Part shown: one piece after another, positions 45,423 through 54,637 of the stretch
How the letters are laid out: each line of letters starts with the position of its first letter
Numbering within the stretch: the first letter of the stretch is position 1
Origin: Sulfurimonas sp.
GTDB taxonomy: Bacteria; Campylobacterota; Campylobacteria; Campylobacterales; Sulfurimonadaceae
Direction of reading: 5' to 3'
DNA length: 64,000 bases
NCBI GenBank assembly: GCA_028684815.1
Contig: JAQUFE010000003.1
Location: 29,708 to 93,707, forward strand
The notes under the pieces: generated by a model
Told to the model about the DNA's origin: nothing
Seen by the model: the letters and a program-made list of their open reading frames with translations, nothing else
Databases searched by the model: none
Program-made: the position numbers and the translations under genes

Positions 45423-47090
45423 ATGCAAGAGTTTATCTACTATAGTGATAGAGGACTTGATTTTCCGCTTCCTGAGCACATTCTAGTTACTTCGACTTAT
45501 GAGCAAAAAAACAGTTTTATTGTCTCAAACTCACAAGAGGTGCATGGAGAAGTAATCGCTGATGAGATTGACTTTTACATCTCTAACTCACAAGATTCCA
45601 TAGCAGATAAGATTAAAAATGTTGAAAAACTCTACGAGATAAATGCTATTCGCTTTGATATGGCACAAGATGTGAGTTTCAGCCAAGATGTCTCTAAAGA
45701 GGTTTTACTCATAGCAACAAAAGAGCAAAAGGAGAGTTTCCTTAAGGCTATGGTTCCAGATGAGTTTAATCTTTTTCATGTACTTCCAGATGCTATAAAA
45801 TCTATTGATGGCCACATTGGAGCTTTGAATGCTGTTATTAATGACACATTTAAAGATGCTACGCTTAAAGTTTCTCAGGTAGTTTGGTTTGATCGCGACA
45901 AAAGAAAAAAAGAGAGAAGCGGAGTTTACGATCCACAAGAGAATTCTATAGATGCAACACTTGCAACACTTAGAAAAAATCTTACAAACTATGACTATAA
46001 AAAATTTACTATTTATGATCAAAACATCTGTCAATACCATGAAAGACGAGAAGAAGTTTGCTCCAAATGTGAAGAGGTATGCCCAACTGTTGCCATCATC
46101 AAAATTGATGAGAGTAAACATCTAAAGTTTTCACAAATAGATTGTCATGGCTGTGGTGGCTGCATCTCTGTTTGTCCTGCAGGCGCGTTAGACTATGCCC
46201 CAACTACTAGAGAGAGCATCTATGAGATGGCTAAACATTTTCGTTATCACACACCTTTAGTTATACCAAAGATTATGAATCTTAAAGATTTAGAAATCTC
46301 TTTAAAAGAGAATGTTTTACCTCTAAAGATAGAAGGCGAAAAGTTCCTGCATGAGTCAACTTTTCTGACTCTACTTCAAGAGTCTGGCTCTCAGGTAATT
46401 TTCTACTCAGATTTTTTATCTAAGGGTGTAAAAGATTCCATCTTAATTTTAAATCAAATCTATCAAAAAAAGTACAACAAAGATGCAATCCTTGTTGCTG
46501 CTAACAAAGAAGAACTCCAAGATGCTATACAAAAGGCTGAGTTTATAGAAAACTCAAGATATTCATACAATGAGATAGGTTCTAAAAAAAGAGAGGTTTT
46601 CTCACTTCGTCTCTCACACATGATAGGCGAAGAAGATTTGGGAGTAGTCACTACTGGCGAGCATGTTCACTACGCTACTGTAAAAGTTGACCAAGACAAA
46701 TGTACACTCTGTTTAGCTTGTGTTGGAGCTTGTAATGTAGATGCACTTGTAGCAGACCCGAAGACTTATGAGTTAAAACTAAATGCTTCAATCTGTACGG
46801 CATGTGGATATTGTGTTCCATCTTGTCCTGAAAAAGATTGTCTCACTTTAGAGCAAGATATTATAGAGTTAAAACCATCTTGGTTTAAAGAGACAACACT
46901 TGCTAAAGATACTCTTTTTGCTTGTGTTGAGTGCGGAGTAGAGTTTGCAACCACTAAGTCAGTTGAAAAAATCGCTGCGATGATGGGGCCTATTTTTGCA
47001 CTTACAAGCCCAGTAAAACAAAGAACACTCTACTGCTGTGAAAACTGCAAACCAAAACTAATGATAAAAGAAGGACTACTAAATGCGTAA
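45423..47090 (+). CDS. Multi-[4Fe-4S] ferredoxin-type protein of formate dehydrogenase locus
   Basis: Several CxxCxxCxxxC motifs (CSKCEEVCP, CHGCGGCISVCP, CTLCLACVGAC, CTACGYCVPSCP). Confidence 0.9.
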   Translation: MQEFIYYSDRGLDFPLPEHILVTSTYEQKNSFIVSNSQEVHGEVIADEIDFYISNSQDSIADKIKNVEKLYEINAIRFDMAQDVSFSQDVSKEVLLIATKEQKESFLKAMVPDEFNLFHVLPDAIKSIDGHIGALNAVINDTFKDATLKVSQVVWFDRDKRKKERSGVYDPQENSIDATLATLRKNLTNYDYKKFTIYDQNICQYHERREEVCSKCEEVCPTVAIIKIDESKHLKFSQIDCHGCGGCISVCPAGALDYAPTTRESIYEMAKHFRYHTPLVIPKIMNLKDLEISLKENVLPLKIEGEKFLHESTFLTLLQESGSQVIFYSDFLSKGVKDSILILNQIYQKKYNKDAILVAANKEELQDAIQKAEFIENSRYSYNEIGSKKREVFSLRLSHMIGEEDLGVVTTGEHVHYATVKVDQDKCTLCLACVGACNVDALVADPKTYELKLNASICTACGYCVPSCPEKDCLTLEQDIIELKPSWFKETTLAKDTLFACVECGVEFATTKSVEKIAAMMGPIFALTSPVKQRTLYCCENCKPKLMIKEGLLNA

Positions 47091-47697
47091 TGAAGAAATA
47101 GATAGAGCAAGACTGTTTATATATAACTTACTGTCTCTTTTGTTTGTAGAGAGCCATGTTAAAAGTGAGCTAGTTCAAATCAAAGAGAACTTAAAACTTC
47201 TCTCTTTAAGCTCTTTTGATGATGATGTAAGTGAGGCAGCATCTTTGATTTTACAAAACTTAGAGAGTGGCTCTGATGATGAGCTTTATGTTGAGTATCA
47301 AGAGCTATTTTTAGTTCCATTTTCATCTTTTATCTCTCTTAGTGCTTCGTACTATTATGAGCAAAGAGAAGGTGGAATGATGCTCTTAAAGGTAAGAGAT
47401 ATCTTAGCTAGAACTAAGATCAGAAAAGATGAAGCTTCTTTTAGTGCCCCAGAAGATCACTTTGGTTTTATCTTCACATTAGCAGCTTATATTATAGAAC
47501 AAGGGATGAAAGATGAGTTAGATGCATCTTTGCAAAAAGAGCTTTTTGAAGCGGTTATAAATCCATTTTGCGATGAAATAGCTTACAAAATGATGTCTAG
47601 CGATACAAAGCTTTACTCCAATGTTGGGGCAATTTTGGGTAACTTTTGTAATTTTGAAAGAGCATACTTGGATGTGACAAAAATAAAAGCAGCTTAA
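47083..47697 (+). CDS. TorD/DmsD family molybdoenzyme chaperone
   Basis: TorD-like helical sequence (YVEYQELFLVPFSSFISLSASYYYEQREGG ... PEDHFGFIFTLAAYIIEQ). Confidence 0.85.
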   Translation: MRNEEIDRARLFIYNLLSLLFVESHVKSELVQIKENLKLLSLSSFDDDVSEAASLILQNLESGSDDELYVEYQELFLVPFSSFISLSASYYYEQREGGMMLLKVRDILARTKIRKDEASFSAPEDHFGFIFTLAAYIIEQGMKDELDASLQKELFEAVINPFCDEIAYKMMSSDTKLYSNVGAILGNFCNFERAYLDVTKIKAA

Positions 47698-48138: not shown

Positions 48139-50937
48139 ATGAAAATGCTTAAAAGCTTTGGGAGAAGAAGTTTTTTAAAAATGGCTTCTCTTGCAACAGC
48201 TACAACAGCAACTTCTGCATTTGCAAGCAATAGCGTCTTAAGAGGGGCAACCAAGGATGAGATTAGAAATCCATATCCTGGTTCAAAACTCATTAAGACA
48301 ATTTGTACGCACTGTTCAGTAGGTTGTGGAGTTATAGCTGAAGTTCAAAATAATGTATGGGTTCGCCAAGAGGTAGCTCATGACCACCCTATTAGTCACG
48401 GAGGGCATTGCTGTAAAGGTGCCGATATGATTGATAAAGTTAGAGGTACTAACAGACTCAAATATCCAACTGCTAAAGTAAATGGCAAGTGGGCAAGACT
48501 TGACTGGGACAAGGCTATGAGCCAAATTTCAGATCAACTAATCGGCATCAGAGAAAAGTATGGTGCGGATGCAGTTCAGTTTTTAGGTTCTGCAAAATGT
48601 AGTAACGAGCAAGCTTATTATATAAGAAAGTTCGCAGCTATGTTTGGAACAAACAACATAGATCACCAAGCTAGAATTTGACATAGTCCAACAGTTGCCG
48701 GTGTGGCAAATACATGGGGTTATGGAGCTATGACAAATCATCTAGGTGACATGCAAAACTCAAAAGCTATTATTATTTTTGGAGCAAATCCAGCATCTAA
48801 TCATCCGATTGCGATGCAACATATTTTAAAAGCAAAAGAACAAAATGGGGCAAAAATAATTGTTATTGACCCAAGATATACAAAAACTGCTGCAAAAAGC
48901 GATATATATTGTCGCATAAGAACAGGAACTGATATCGCATTTTTATACGGAATGATAAGACTCATCCGTGATAACAACTGGTATGACAAATCTTTTATAA
49001 ACGATAGAGTTTATGGGATGGAAGAGATTTTCAAAGAGTGTGAAGAGTATACTCCAGAGCACGTTGAAGATATAACAGGATGTCCAAAAGAGCTTCTAAT
49101 CCAAGCTGCAACTGCCTTTGCAACAGCAGAACCAGGTTGTCTGATTTGGAACCAAGGATGGACTCAACACACTGTTGGATCATCAAACACAAGACTAGGC
49201 TCAATCCTACAACTTGTTCTTGGAAACATGGGTAAACCAGGTGGTGGAACTAATATCTTAAGAGGTCATGACAATGTTCAAGGCTCTACAGATATGGGTT
49301 GTCTTTCCGATACTCTTCCAGGATATTACGGACTTGCTGAGGGTTCATGGAAATACTTTGCATCTCAATGGAAAGTTGATTATGAGTGGTTAAAAGGTCG
49401 ATTTAAATCTAAAGAGATGATGGAAGCAAAAGGCTTTAGTTTAAGTTTATGGATGAACGGTGTTTTAGATGAAGCAAATGCTAAAAATAATGCTGGTACT
49501 CCTCTAAAAGCTCTAGTATGTATAGGAAATGGAATATCAACCATTACTCAAACACACAAAGTTAAAGAGGCTCTTGATAAGCTAGATTTAGTTGTTTTTA
49601 TAGACCCTTATGTAAATGATGCGGCTGTTATTACTACAAGAGATAACAACCTCTACTTACTTCCAGCAGCATCTCAAGTTGAGTGTAGCGGAACTGTTGT
49701 AAACACAGGAAGAAGTGCACAGTGGAGAAGTAAAGTTATTGAGCCTCTATATGAAGCAAGACCAGATGAAGAGATTTTATTTGATTTTGCAAAAAGAATG
49801 GGCTTTTATGATGAATTTACAGCTGGTATGGGCAAAGGTAAAGATTTTACTTGGCCAGAAGATGCAACAGATGAGATAGCAAGAAGCTTAAAAACTGTCG
49901 GTTTTCAAGGTAGAACTGCTGCAAGAGTTAAAAAGCATACAGAGAATTGGCATCTTTTTGATACAACTTCACTCAAAGGAAGAGGTCCAGTATCTAAAGA
50001 GTATTATGGATTACCATGGCCTTGTTGGACGCAAGAACATCCTGGAAGCCCAGTTTTATATAATATAAATCTACCAGTTAGTCAAGGTGGTATGGGCTTT
50101 AGAACTAGATTTGGTACTGAGCGAAATGGTGTATCTCTGCTAGCAGCTGATGGCGCGGCACCTGTTGGTTCACGTATCAAAGGTGGATATGATGAGATTA
50201 CTTCTCAAAATATTGAAAACTTAAGTGGTATCAAACTAACAGATGAAGAGAAAAAACTCGTTGAGGGTAAAAACTGGAAGACTGATGATAGTGGCATCTT
50301 AGTTAGAAATGCCCTAAAAGCTGGACTTGCTCCTTATGGGAATGCAAGAGCTAGAACTATTGTTTGGGGCTTTAGAGATGAGATTCCAAAACATAGAGAG
50401 CCATTGCACTCATTTAGACAAGATTTAGTAAAAAGATATCCAGCAGTTGCAGATATAGAAAATCACTATAGAACAACTGTTCGTTATGCAAGTGAGCAAA
50501 ACGCTCAAAACTGGGTTGCCGATTATCCTATAAACATTGTCTCAGGAAGAGTTGTTGAGCATATGGGAACAGGAACAGAGACTCGTGCATCTAAATACCT
50601 AGCTGAACTCTCAGGAGAGATGTATGGTGAACTTCATCCAGAACTAGCTGCAAAACTAGGTATCAGAGATGGCGAGATGATGTGGGTTTATGGAACTGGC
50701 GAGGGTAAAATTAAGATTAAGTGTAAATACTCTTATAGAGTAGATGAGAACTCGGTCTTTTTACCTCAAAACTTCTCTGGTGTTTGGAGTGGTGAGAGTT
50801 TAGAGAGTAGATATCCAGCAGGAACTGCTCCTCATAGTTTTGGTGAGAACTCTAACCAAGTTACAAGTTACGGTTACGACCAACAGACATCTTGTCCAGA
50901 GACTAAGTGTTCTTTGGTAAGAATTGAAAGAGCATAG
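48139..50937 (+). CDS. fdhA: Selenocysteine-containing formate dehydrogenase major subunit (UGA at 48679-48681 read as Sec)
   Basis: ORFs 48139-48681 and 48703-50937 are in one frame, split only by TGA in DHQARI-[TGA]-HSPTVAGVANTWGYGAM, the Sec/Cys ligand position of FdhA; Tat signal RRSFLKM; 4Fe-4S CTHCSVGCG. Confidence 0.95.
48695..48709 (+). promoter_or_regulatory. Candidate bacterial SECIS apical stem-loop TTGCC-GGTGT-GGCAA
   Basis: 5-bp stem starting 13 nt after the TGA, within the coding region, as expected for bacterial SECIS elements. Confidence 0.65.
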
Positions 50938-50947
50938 GAGAAGTAAA

Positions 50948-51538
50948 ATGAGTAAGCCAGAATATGCAAGAATGAAATTTTACTGCGATGAGGATCTTTG
51001 TATTGACTGTAATGGTTGTGTTGTAGCTTGTAAAGAAGCTCACGAAGTTCCAGTTGGAATAAATAGAAGAAAAGTTGTAACTATCAACGAGGGTATTGTA
51101 GGTAAAGAGATCTCTTTATCTATGGCATGTATGCATTGTACAGATGCACCGTGTCAACAAGTTTGTCCAGTTGATTGTTTCTATATAAGAGTGGATGGGA
51201 TAGTCCTCCACGACAAAGATAAGTGTATCGGTTGTGGGTATTGTCTATTTGCTTGTCCTTTTGGTGCGCCACAGTTCCCTCAAGATGGAGCTTTTGGTAT
51301 AAAAGGTAAGATGGACAAATGTACAATGTGTGCAGGTGGTCCAGAAGAGACTAACTCTCCTGCAGAGTTCAATAAATATGGACAAAACAGAATTGCAGAG
51401 GGTAAAGTCCCAATGTGTGCATCTATGTGTTCAACTAAAGCGTTATTGGTTGGAGATTCAACAGAAGTAGCAGCTATTAAAACATATAGATCTGTAGCTC
51501 ATGGAAAAGGCATATCAACACAGTCTTACGGTTGGTAG
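50948..51538 (+). CDS. fdhB: Formate dehydrogenase iron-sulfur (beta) subunit
   Basis: CIDCNGCVVACKEAHEVP, CMHCTDAPCQQVCP, CIGCGYCLFACPFGAPQFP. ATG at 50948 (MSKPEYARMKF) preferred over the ORF-track start at 50924. Confidence 0.94.
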   Translation: MSKPEYARMKFYCDEDLCIDCNGCVVACKEAHEVPVGINRRKVVTINEGIVGKEISLSMACMHCTDAPCQQVCPVDCFYIRVDGIVLHDKDKCIGCGYCLFACPFGAPQFPQDGAFGIKGKMDKCTMCAGGPEETNSPAEFNKYGQNRIAEGKVPMCASMCSTKALLVGDSTEVAAIKTYRSVAHGKGISTQSYGW

Positions 51539-51547
51539 GAGTTTATA

Positions 51548-52495
51548 ATGCAAAGTAGTACATTTTTTACTAGAAACAAAGCATATATATTTACTCTCTT
51601 AGGTCTAGGCCTTGTTGGTTTTGTATTTGTAGGATTTATGATGATTATGGATTGGGAGTACTTTTTAAAGTACCCCCTCCATGTTATTTTAACTGGAGAT
51701 ACTAGCGGAGTTCTATCTGAGCCAACTTCAAACTACCAAGCAATGGTAAATGCGGCTTTTGGACCTAGTTACAACTCTATTGCCCCTGAGATTATTCGTG
51801 CAAGTAATGAGAGACAAGAGTTTATATGGTGGGTTTTTGTAGCTGAGATTGCAATCTTTTGTTTTATGTATGCAAAGTACGGAAGAAAAGTTGCAATAGT
51901 TACAAACCCTAGTGATGAAGTTCAAGTTTTTAGTATATTTCACAGAGCTGTAATTTGGTTAAATATTATCGTAATATCTGCTTTAATAATTACAGGCTTT
52001 AACATAACTTGGGGTATGCGTTCAGGTGGTGGAGATATAGCATTTTTTCTAAGAAGTTCACATGAGATGCTAGGTCTGGTCTGGCTCCCATTATGGTTTG
52101 CTATGACTCTTGTTGCATTTAAAGATGCAAAGATTCTTTTTAACAACTCTTTGAGTAAAAAGTTGATTTTAAAAGGTAGTTATTCGCCAATGGGTAGGAT
52201 TATTTTTATAGTTTTTGTTATTATGGGAGCGAGTCTGCTCTTTAGTGGTATAACTATTTGGTATCTTCATCCTGATGCGTATACGCACAGTGAGTTTATC
52301 CAACTCAAAAGATATCTGCTCTATGTCCATTTTGGAGCTAGTGTACTAATCATGTTTTTCTTGATGGATTTTGTTTACTCGGTAATGGTCGCAGTAAAAG
52401 GAAATCTTAAAGGGTTAATAACAGGAAAATATCCACGAGAGCATCTTGAGCAATTAGCGCCTGATGTTTTAAAAGATATAGAAGAAAAAAGGTAG
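51548..52495 (+). CDS. fdhC: Formate dehydrogenase cytochrome b (gamma) subunit
   Basis: Multi-TM protein with conserved His (FHRAVIWLNIIVISALIITGFNITWG, SSHEMLGLVWLPLWFAMTL, VHFGASVLIMFFLMDFVYS), downstream of fdhB. Confidence 0.9.
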   Translation: MQSSTFFTRNKAYIFTLLGLGLVGFVFVGFMMIMDWEYFLKYPLHVILTGDTSGVLSEPTSNYQAMVNAAFGPSYNSIAPEIIRASNERQEFIWWVFVAEIAIFCFMYAKYGRKVAIVTNPSDEVQVFSIFHRAVIWLNIIVISALIITGFNITWGMRSGGGDIAFFLRSSHEMLGLVWLPLWFAMTLVAFKDAKILFNNSLSKKLILKGSYSPMGRIIFIVFVIMGASLLFSGITIWYLHPDAYTHSEFIQLKRYLLYVHFGASVLIMFFLMDFVYSVMVAVKGNLKGLITGKYPREHLEQLAPDVLKDIEEKR

Positions 52496-52500
52496 TCTCA

Positions 52501-53331
52501 ATGACTAAATTAATGACAAGCAACGAGATTCCACAACTACATCCTAATCTAGGTGAACACACTAAAAGAGTGGTCATAGAGAGATTTGATTTAGATGGAG
52601 TCGATACCTTTGAAGACTATGTTATAAAAGAGCAAAGAGTTAAGTTTTTTTTAAATGGAGTTAAGTTTCTCTCAGTCATGTGCATCGCAAAATATCAAGA
52701 TGCACATATTGTAGGTTTTTTACTCTCAGAAGCTGTCATTAAGAGTCTTGATGATGTTAAGAGTCTTGAAGTTAGCGATGATGGGCTCAGCGTCTATGTA
52801 GATGCTGATGTCTCTCAAGAAGGATATGATAATCTCTTTAAAGAAAAAACTCTAACTTCAGGCTGTTGTATCGGTGTAACAGGAAATGCTGAAGAGCTTT
52901 TTAAATGCTCATTTATTAGCACTGACTACACTATTAGTGCAGAAGATGCACTAAAGACAATGAGAAGTTTTTCAAAGCCATCTGAGCTATTTGATAATAC
53001 TGGTTGCGTTCACAAAGCAAGACTTGTTTTAGAAGATGGTAGCTTTTTTGAAGCTGAGGACATAGGAAGACACAACGCTATTGATAAGGTTGTTGGTCTT
53101 GCATCTCTTAGTAAAAAAGATATACAAAGATCTGTTTTATATGCAAGTGGAAGATTATCTATGGAGATGGTAGTGAAGTGTGTTATGCACAAGATTCCCA
53201 TAGTTATATCAAAAGCTGCTGTTACATTTCAAGGTATAAAAGCTGCGAATGAGCATGGCATCACTCTTGTTGGTTTTGCAAGAGGAAACAAGATGAATCT
53301 ATATACCCATTCTGCTAGAATAGGTGTATAG
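52501..53331 (+). CDS. fdhD: FdhD sulfur carrier/sulfurtransferase
   Basis: FdhD pattern (FKCSFISTDYTISAEDALKTMRSF... FDNTGCVHKARLVLEDGSFFEAEDIGRHNAIDKVVG ... YASGRLSMEMVVKCVMHKIPIVISKAAVT). Confidence 0.93.
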   Translation: MTKLMTSNEIPQLHPNLGEHTKRVVIERFDLDGVDTFEDYVIKEQRVKFFLNGVKFLSVMCIAKYQDAHIVGFLLSEAVIKSLDDVKSLEVSDDGLSVYVDADVSQEGYDNLFKEKTLTSGCCIGVTGNAEELFKCSFISTDYTISAEDALKTMRSFSKPSELFDNTGCVHKARLVLEDGSFFEAEDIGRHNAIDKVVGLASLSKKDIQRSVLYASGRLSMEMVVKCVMHKIPIVISKAAVTFQGIKAANEHGITLVGFARGNKMNLYTHSARIGV

Positions 53332-53364
53332 ACTATTTGCCACACTGAAGAGAGTGACTCCTCT

Positions 53365-53418
53365 TTTGTAAAGAAACTTCGATTTGTAAAGAAACTTCGT
53401 TTTCTAAAGAAACTTCGT
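53365..53418 (+). repeat. Three tandem 18-bp repeats, consensus TTTGTAAAGAAACTTCGT
   Basis: Starts at 53365, 53383 and 53401; units differ by one or two bases. Confidence 0.85.
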
Positions 53419-53485
53419 TTTGTGGGAGGGATTACATATCCCAAAATTATTTCCAAACTATGAGAAGTGAATTTTTTCATAATCA

Positions 53486-53646
53486 GCAAGGCACTCCAAT
53501 GTATGCTTCCCCTAGCTAAAGAGGAGTACCTTGCTTAAACCTTGTTAGGTGCTCCAACATACGCTTCCCCTAGCTAAAGAGGGGCACCTACTTAAATTTT
53601 GTTAGGTACTTCAAGATATGCTTCCCCTAGCTAAGGGAAGTACCTA
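53486..53646 (+). repeat. Three tandem 57-60 bp hairpin-forming repeats with GCTTCCCCTAGCTAA core
   Basis: Arm pairs 53486-53497/53523-53534, 53546-53555/53581-53590, 53603-53612/53637-53646; arm sequence varies but stays complementary. Confidence 0.85.
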
Positions 53647-53662: not shown

Positions 53663-54637
53663 ATGTTACATTTAAACAAACTACAATATAACCCTCTAAA
53701 TATCGTAGAACTCTCAAACTCACTCTCGCTAAATGCATTAAAACAAAATGAAGACTATGAAAAGCTATGTTTGGATTTTCAGACAAAATATAAGCGCAAG
53801 ATGCTAAAAACATTTTCTTTTTCAAAAGAGGGTTTTTTAGGTCTTTTCCTTGAGTTAGATGCAAATATTGCAATTAGTAGGGGTGAGAGCCAAGCTGTTA
53901 TTGAAGCTGGCTTACTATATGAAAAACTTGGATTTACCATCACATGGCTTGAACTAAACAGAGATGGAGGTGTGAACTTATCAAACTTAAACGATATAGA
54001 CTTTATATTTATCTCCTCTTATGTAATGGATACCTTTGTAAAAACAGATTTAAAAGAGATAAAAAAAAGAGTAGATGCAAAGATTATCTCTAATGCATCT
54101 GCTCATTATCATCAATGTAGTGATGCCCTTTATTTTGATTCTTATAAGTTAACAGGCTTTGCCCTTAGCGGAGTTTTACTCTTTGATGATGAGATGTTTG
54201 AGCTAATAAGTATAGGATTTATGGATACAATTACTCTAAAACTCTCCTTAGATGCACTAAAGATGCAGAGCTTTAACACTACGCTAAAAGCTAAGTTTTT
54301 AGAAGAGTTAAAGAGGATTTTTAAAGAAGATTTATACTTTTTTGTCTCCCCAGATTCTACACTTGAATACTCTCTTCATTTTGGACTAAAGGGTATAAAG
54401 GCTAGAGAGTTTATAAGAACTTTAGCTCTTAGTAAACTCTTTATTACAAATGGAGAGGGCTGCTCACTAGGACTTGCAAAACCATCAAGAGTTATTCAGG
54501 CTATGGGTTATAGTGAGGAGCAAAGTAGAAATAGTATTGAGCTATCTTTTGTAGATGAAATGAGTGATAAAGAGATAGAGAGTGCAGTAAAGACTATGCA
54601 TCTAAAATATATTCAGCTACTCTCTTTTAGTGAGTAA
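53663..54637 (+). CDS. Divergent class V aminotransferase, cysteine desulfurase (NifS/IscS)-like
   Basis: ATG at 53663 after AAGAGGA (ORF-track start 53618 lies inside a hairpin repeat). Retains FDSYKLTGFALSGVLLFDDE (PLP-Lys region) and NGEGCSLGLAKPSRVIQAMGYSEEQSRNSIELSFVDEMSDKEIE (catalytic Cys loop and C-terminus). Confidence 0.75.
   Translation: MLHLNKLQYNPLNIVELSNSLSLNALKQNEDYEKLCLDFQTKYKRKMLKTFSFSKEGFLGLFLELDANIAISRGESQAVIEAGLLYEKLGFTITWLELNRDGGVNLSNLNDIDFIFISSYVMDTFVKTDLKEIKKRVDAKIISNASAHYHQCSDALYFDSYKLTGFALSGVLLFDDEMFELISIGFMDTITLKLSLDALKMQSFNTTLKAKFLEELKRIFKEDLYFFVSPDSTLEYSLHFGLKGIKAREFIRTLALSKLFITNGEGCSLGLAKPSRVIQAMGYSEEQSRNSIELSFVDEMSDKEIESAVKTMHLKYIQLLSFSE

Follow-up and report, generated by a model that had tools for sequence, protein, structure and literature searches.

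A conserved NifS-like protein with an eroded PLP site is encoded with FdhD in formate dehydrogenase loci of Campylobacterota

The IscS/NifS proteins (TIGR02006 and TIGR03402) have a fold-type I scaffold and a mobile C-terminal loop, which carries Cys328 in Escherichia coli IscS (PDB 3LVM). In E. coli, IscS is known to bind FdhD and to supply it with sulfur; the binding is direct, and residue Cys121 of FdhD stimulates IscS (PMC6239281). Both this pair and the XdhC-NifS4 pair of Rhodobacter capsulatus join a Moco chaperone to a protein with the desulfurase fold to provide the sulfido ligand (PMC6239281, PMC10609526), with an active PLP enzyme as the partner in each case. In E. coli and R. capsulatus, the cysteines of FdhD are not a strict requirement (PMC6239281). 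Many FdhDs do not have the CXXC motif, and a different mechanism has been suggested in a review for some FdhDs (PMC6239281, PMC10609526). A different use of the fold is known from Archaeoglobus fulgidus IscS (PDB 4HVK/4EB5), which is without the lysine, has no desulfurase activity, and gives a Cys ligand to the cluster of IscU (PMC7585200).

We examined a NifS-like gene, called X here, from a Campylobacterota (Sulfurimonas-like) genome, in which it follows a Sec-type fdhA-fdhB-fdhC-fdhD cluster. Positions refer to the window, the whole stretch of 64,000 nucleotides that was analyzed, and all features are on its forward strand. A gene for a TorD/FdhM-like chaperone (Pfam PF02613, 4.7e-20) is found at 47083..47697. 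The open reading frame (ORF) of fdhA (48139..50937) encodes a selenoprotein, with an in-frame TGA at 48679-48681 (ARI-U-HSPTV). The genes fdhB, for a ferredoxin-type subunit (50924..51538, or possibly starting at the ATG at 50948), and fdhC, for a cytochrome b subunit (51548..52495), were assigned from their ORFs and the conserved gene order. A match to NF001943 (314 bits), a loop motif, and its place in a tree assign fdhD (52501..53331) to the clade with KTL-SGC(C/G)xGVTGN loops, here TSGCCIGVTGN. X itself (53663..54637) is predicted from its ORF, an AlphaFold (AF2) model, and its homologues to encode a 324-aa NifS-like protein with an eroded PLP site. The ORF is intact and starts with the ATG at 53663, with AGAGGA upstream; the alternative start, the first ATG at 53618, adds a 15-aa extension without conservation. 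X is conserved in homologues L018 to L032, and comparison with the 80%-identical homologue L018 gave a dN of 0.11 and a dS of 0.58. X evolves under purifying selection.

The gap between fdhD and X in the window holds two sets of three short direct repeats (53364-53423 and 53476-53634), spaced by 18 and about 58 nt. Their core was found solely here in the genome, apart from one two-mismatch copy. In the close relative L018, the gap is only 71 nt long.

The likeness of X to NifS in sequence is weak and chiefly C-terminal. Pfam Aminotran_5 matched X with an E value of 0.004, below the cut-off, and the scores against NCBIfam IscS (TIGR02006; 40 bits, with a curated cut-off of 643 bits) and TIGR03403 (13.8 bits, with a cut-off of 588) lie far under these cut-offs. 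X is also about 80 residues shorter than IscS/NifS. The AF2 model, built from a 35-sequence alignment (pLDDT 91.3, pTM 0.90), has the fold-type I class-V fold of IscS/NifS. Foldseek returned A. fulgidus IscS, human NFS1, and E. coli IscS as its top matches (E values of 1e-18 to 1e-14 and a TM score of about 0.75 against IscS/NFS1), and the best PDB match was the PLP-less Archaeoglobus protein. In a phylogenetic tree, X as a whole stands apart from canonical NifS on a branch of 2.85 with support of 100/100. The kinship of X with NifS is thus real but remote. A canonical NifS (726 bits) is encoded at a separate site in the same genome, unlike the arrangement in the FdhD-IscS and XdhC-NifS4 pairs, in which the active enzyme itself is the partner; here, FdhD is accompanied by a PLP-eroded paralogue, and the active-looking NifS is encoded elsewhere.

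Residues were mapped by profile-profile alignment (hhalign) of X with an E. coli IscS sequence that agrees with stretches of PDB 1p3w. This alignment pairs C267 (codon 54461..54463) with Cys328 and K162 (codon 54146..54148) with the PLP-lysine Lys206, so that the lysine region and the catalytic-Cys loop that the first-pass annotation had recognized are both retained. The same annotation had proposed that the PLP-stacking His has become Ser and that the Asp contacting the PLP pyridine has become Asn, and realignment restored neither residue. S76 (codon 53888..53890) aligns with His104, a position occupied by S, T, C, or P across alignment A3. Asp180 corresponds to a gap in hhalign, to Ser146 in one HMM alignment, and to Asn144 in the first-pass alignment, none of which is Asp. 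We favor Asn144 (codon 54092..54094) because Sulfuricurvum and family f2 homologues have Asp or Glu at this position, where the same strand ends. In addition, Y161 aligns with His205 and M122/D123 with Asn155/Glu156, the equivalent of Gln183 is gone, and the Thr76 phosphate loop has no counterpart in X.

What the first-pass annotation had not noticed is that the erosion of the PLP site varies among lineages and that the Cys loop alone is universal. In the Arcobacter/Sulfurimonas clade of X, His and Asp are gone and Lys is kept in all sampled members except G008, which has Arg. Sulfuricurvum X keeps Asp and Lys and has lost His, and most f2 homologues keep His and Asp/Glu and have lost Lys; a Lys-like residue in the f2 homologue L085 was not accepted as the PLP-lysine, since it probably reflects an alignment shift. 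Asp loss is limited to the Arcobacter/Sulfurimonas clade, and none of the 47 homologues has His, Asp, and Lys together. C267, by comparison, is kept in 47/47, and its loop (TNGEGCSLGLAKPSR, residues 262-276) is the most conserved (lowest-entropy) 15-mer of X across them; residues 268-271 of this loop have a pLDDT of <50 in the AF2 model. The simplest reading of these sequences would be that selection no longer maintains PLP chemistry in X and still maintains the cysteine. X would in this respect resemble A. fulgidus IscS, in which the NifS fold and the loop Cys are kept and PLP chemistry is lost (PMC7585200). The two differ in that A. fulgidus IscS is archaeal, has IscU rather than (by genomics) FdhD as its partner, and has lost Lys, the residue that the window X keeps, having lost His and Asp, and that f2 homologues have lost.

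A contig scan with two peptide patterns, by which remote relatives in other phyla may be missed, found 38 X loci, all from Campylobacterota except for one metagenome-assembled genome (MAG) labelled Pseudomonadaceae. The fdh/X locus of this MAG (L045, CANRHT010000253.1) is near-identical to that of Arcobacter cryaerophilus, and the contig is probably misbinned. We then surveyed 397 Campylobacterota genomes, counting X at E <1e-14, and found it in 98, of which 95 have FdhD and 3 do not. Within families f1 (Sulfurimonadaceae, from named contigs), f2 (probably Helicobacteraceae, from its pattern), f6, and f7 (Arcobacteraceae, from named contigs), X is present in 95/97 fdhD-positive genomes versus 3/64 fdhD-negative ones, the 64 being those listed rather than every negative and the counts being phylogenetically non-independent. 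The link to fdhD on which the first-pass annotation hinged is therefore present at the genomic level, both in this co-occurrence and in operon linkage. One of the three X genomes without fdhD (G386) ends at a contig break, and the other two (G255 and G260) appear to be real exceptions. Conversely, X was not found, also on recheck, in the fdhD-positive genomes G324 and G415, whose FdhD is of the X-associated type. An ORF beside selA in G324 (orf391) was considered as X and is a canonical NifS instead. Matches to the X profile with E values of about 1e-4 to 1e-9 in f3, f5, and f10 were not counted, and the weak matches examined in full (G205, G223, and G365) were canonical NifS. Homologue L017 (E value of 1e-3) was spurious, its ORF reading as a carbamoyl-phosphate synthase small subunit. 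Separately, strong FdhA matches with no PF02634 FdhD match were seen in f3/g26 (G208, G221, G232, G248, and others) and f2/g30 (G230, G242, G245, G269, and others).

The gene neighbors of X in annotated stretches are fdhD, modE, moeA, or selA-selB. X is found beside fdhD in three of the families. In loci of the Arcobacter, Sulfurimonas, and Sulfuricurvum type, X adjoins fdhD or lies within about 700 bp of it, and the two share an operon in which modE, moeA, and overlaps between genes are frequent; in Sulfuricurvum, X and fdhD themselves overlap. The recurring order of the Arcobacter/Sulfurimonas type is fdhA-B-C-D-[ORF132]-[modE]-X-[moeA-mod/tup ABC]. In f2, X is mostly found as selA-selB-X-moeA and not beside fdhD, and one f2 genome (G354) has selA-selB-fdhD-modE-X-moeA. 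Comparison of the f2 and Arcobacter X profiles gave an E value of 4e-53, showing that they belong to one family.

Several loci have further features. ORF132, of about 130 aa, lies between fdhD and modE/X (L033:7589-8005, L020:10363-10758, and other loci) and is absent in the window. It has two similar halves, each with conserved Cys and a C(E/Q)LG(V/C)F motif, and had no match in Pfam, NCBIfam, or the PDB; its AF2 model is helical (pLDDT 76). A second X copy without its own fdhD is present downstream of the fdh-mod locus at L039:8001-8975 and L094:6968-7984, accompanied in L094 by a second ORF132. In a Sulfurimonas MAG, fdhA has a second in-frame stop in addition to the Sec TGA (L026:6336-6338, also L059:3862-3864), which is either an assembly error or recent damage.

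X goes with one deep clade of FdhD, and Campylobacterota with the other clade are without X. The FdhDs of X genomes have KTL(T/V)(S/T)GC(C/G)xG-type loops, whereas those sampled from the X-free families f3, f4, f5, and f10 have a (V/I)(V/I)(I/V)SGCG(R/K)-type loop, and the 14 FdhDs sampled in X-free families form one separate clade (support 99/100, branch 1.5). Distances among X and FdhD proteins are correlated (r=0.61, 0/2000 permutations). In the trees, the window X groups with Aliarcobacter and not with most other Sulfurimonas, and so does the FdhD of L018, the closest relative, as if the X-FdhD module were mobile as a unit.

On balance, we favor the reading that X is a catalytically eroded desulfurase paralogue dedicated to FdhD, acting as a PLP-independent sulfur relay or docking protein; X is probably a protein, not described before, that hands over sulfur for formate dehydrogenase. 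This reading rests on several observations: X has the fold, has lost residues of the PLP site, and evolves under purifying selection, its Cys is universal, it co-occurs and is linked with fdhD, and the genome encodes a canonical NifS separately. X would be a cysteine desulfurase paralogue that gave up PLP chemistry, retained its fold and mobile Cys loop, and works with FdhD in formate dehydrogenase maturation. C267 would be loaded with persulfide by the housekeeping NifS or from sulfide, and X would hand the sulfur to FdhD, to become the sulfido ligand of the Mo/W-bis-PGD cofactor; alternatively to a relay, X might dock on FdhD and replace IscS at that interface. An IscS-shaped partner for FdhD is plausible because E. 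coli FdhD binds IscS directly, and a Cys-to-Cys relay is not certain because FdhD cysteines are not strictly required. The link of X to FdhD is a genomic one: of the roles suggested in the first-pass annotation, that of a dedicated FdhD partner agrees with the co-occurrence, the operons, and the single FdhD clade, and stands to that extent. The suggestion of a shuttle without full desulfurase activity fits the eroded site and fixed Cys; we infer that X does not desulfurate cysteine, that C267 is a sulfur carrier, and that FdhD is the acceptor. Counting against this reading are the lysine retained in the window X, the exceptional genomes G324, G415, G255, and G260, and the f2 genes that accompany selA-selB and moeA.

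Most X genomes make Sec-FdhA, and we therefore tested a selenium role, in which X would supply selenium for selenocysteine to SelD/SelA. SelA is present in 96/98 X genomes, selA-selB-X-moeA operons recur in f2, and G255 and G260 keep X, SelA, and SelD, with FdhD and FdhA not found; in both (L097 and L098), X is intact and away from selAB, and SelD has an in-frame TGA. X is nevertheless not confined to genomes with a Sec or Se trait. G527 has an intact X adjoining fdhD, a Cys-FdhA (ARICHSPTV), and neither SelA nor SelD, which argues against selenium as the general role of X, and G472 has an intact X beside a gene for Cys-FdhA, with SelD and no SelA. SelA-positive genomes without fdhD are mostly without X, which was not found in G103, G243, G309, and G364, and f3 and f10 make Sec-FdhA and FdhD without it. 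X thus tracks FdhD better than Sec. A purely Sec-linked general function was rejected on G527, G472, G103, G243, and G364, and the selenium-handling enzyme for Sec supply put forward in the first-pass annotation did not hold up as a general function on G527 and G472; we consider a selenium supply role unlikely. Five Arcobacteraceae genomes (G530, G386, G225, G470, and G490) each pair Sec- and Cys-type FdhA copies.

It is rather improbable that X, as a partner of MoeA, serves metal insertion or Moco assembly and not sulfuration. In many operons of Arcobacter, Sulfurimonas, and f2, the gene immediately after X is moeA, and in Methylorubrum, a dedicated MoeA serves a W-FDH together with MobB and FdhD (PMC13197769). 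However, the window, Sulfuricurvum, and several Aliarcobacter have no moeA beside X. The order fdhD-modE-moeA occurs without X in f4 and f5 genomes, and MoeA is present in 5/5 checked genomes, only 2/5 of which have X. That X remains an active PLP-dependent desulfurase or selenocysteine lyase, with an atypical site, would accord with the intact fold and Cys loop and with the lysine of the Arcobacter/Sulfurimonas clade. Against this, His104, Asp180, Gln183, His205, and the phosphate loop are all lost, Lys is lost in f2 and replaced by Arg in G008, and the single changes H104Q, Q183E, and K206A each abolish the desulfurase activity of E. coli IscS (PMC9978102), making an active enzyme very unlikely.

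We return to X as a sulfur relay or docking protein for FdhD. In one version, possible but doubtful, X would be a PLP-free carrier whose loop Cys is loaded from sulfide or polysulfide, not from L-cysteine, and passes sulfur to the CXXC-less type of FdhD. We found no published description of X in the literature, including full text on fdhD with Arcobacter or Sulfurimonas, and desulfurase, NifS, and fdhD go unmentioned in a paper on the Campylobacterota selenoproteome (PMC4607533). X is a conserved variant, so far undescribed, of a known kind of protein and a concrete, testable candidate for FdhD sulfur supply outside E. coli, and it may help in the heterologous production of active CO2-reducing formate dehydrogenases. 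If the proposed role is correct, X would be a further NifS fold, after Archaeoglobus IscS, that is kept for its cysteine and not for PLP chemistry. Were loading from sulfide or polysulfide to be true, it would constitute a cysteine-independent route of Mo/W cofactor sulfuration in sulfur-metabolizing Campylobacterota.
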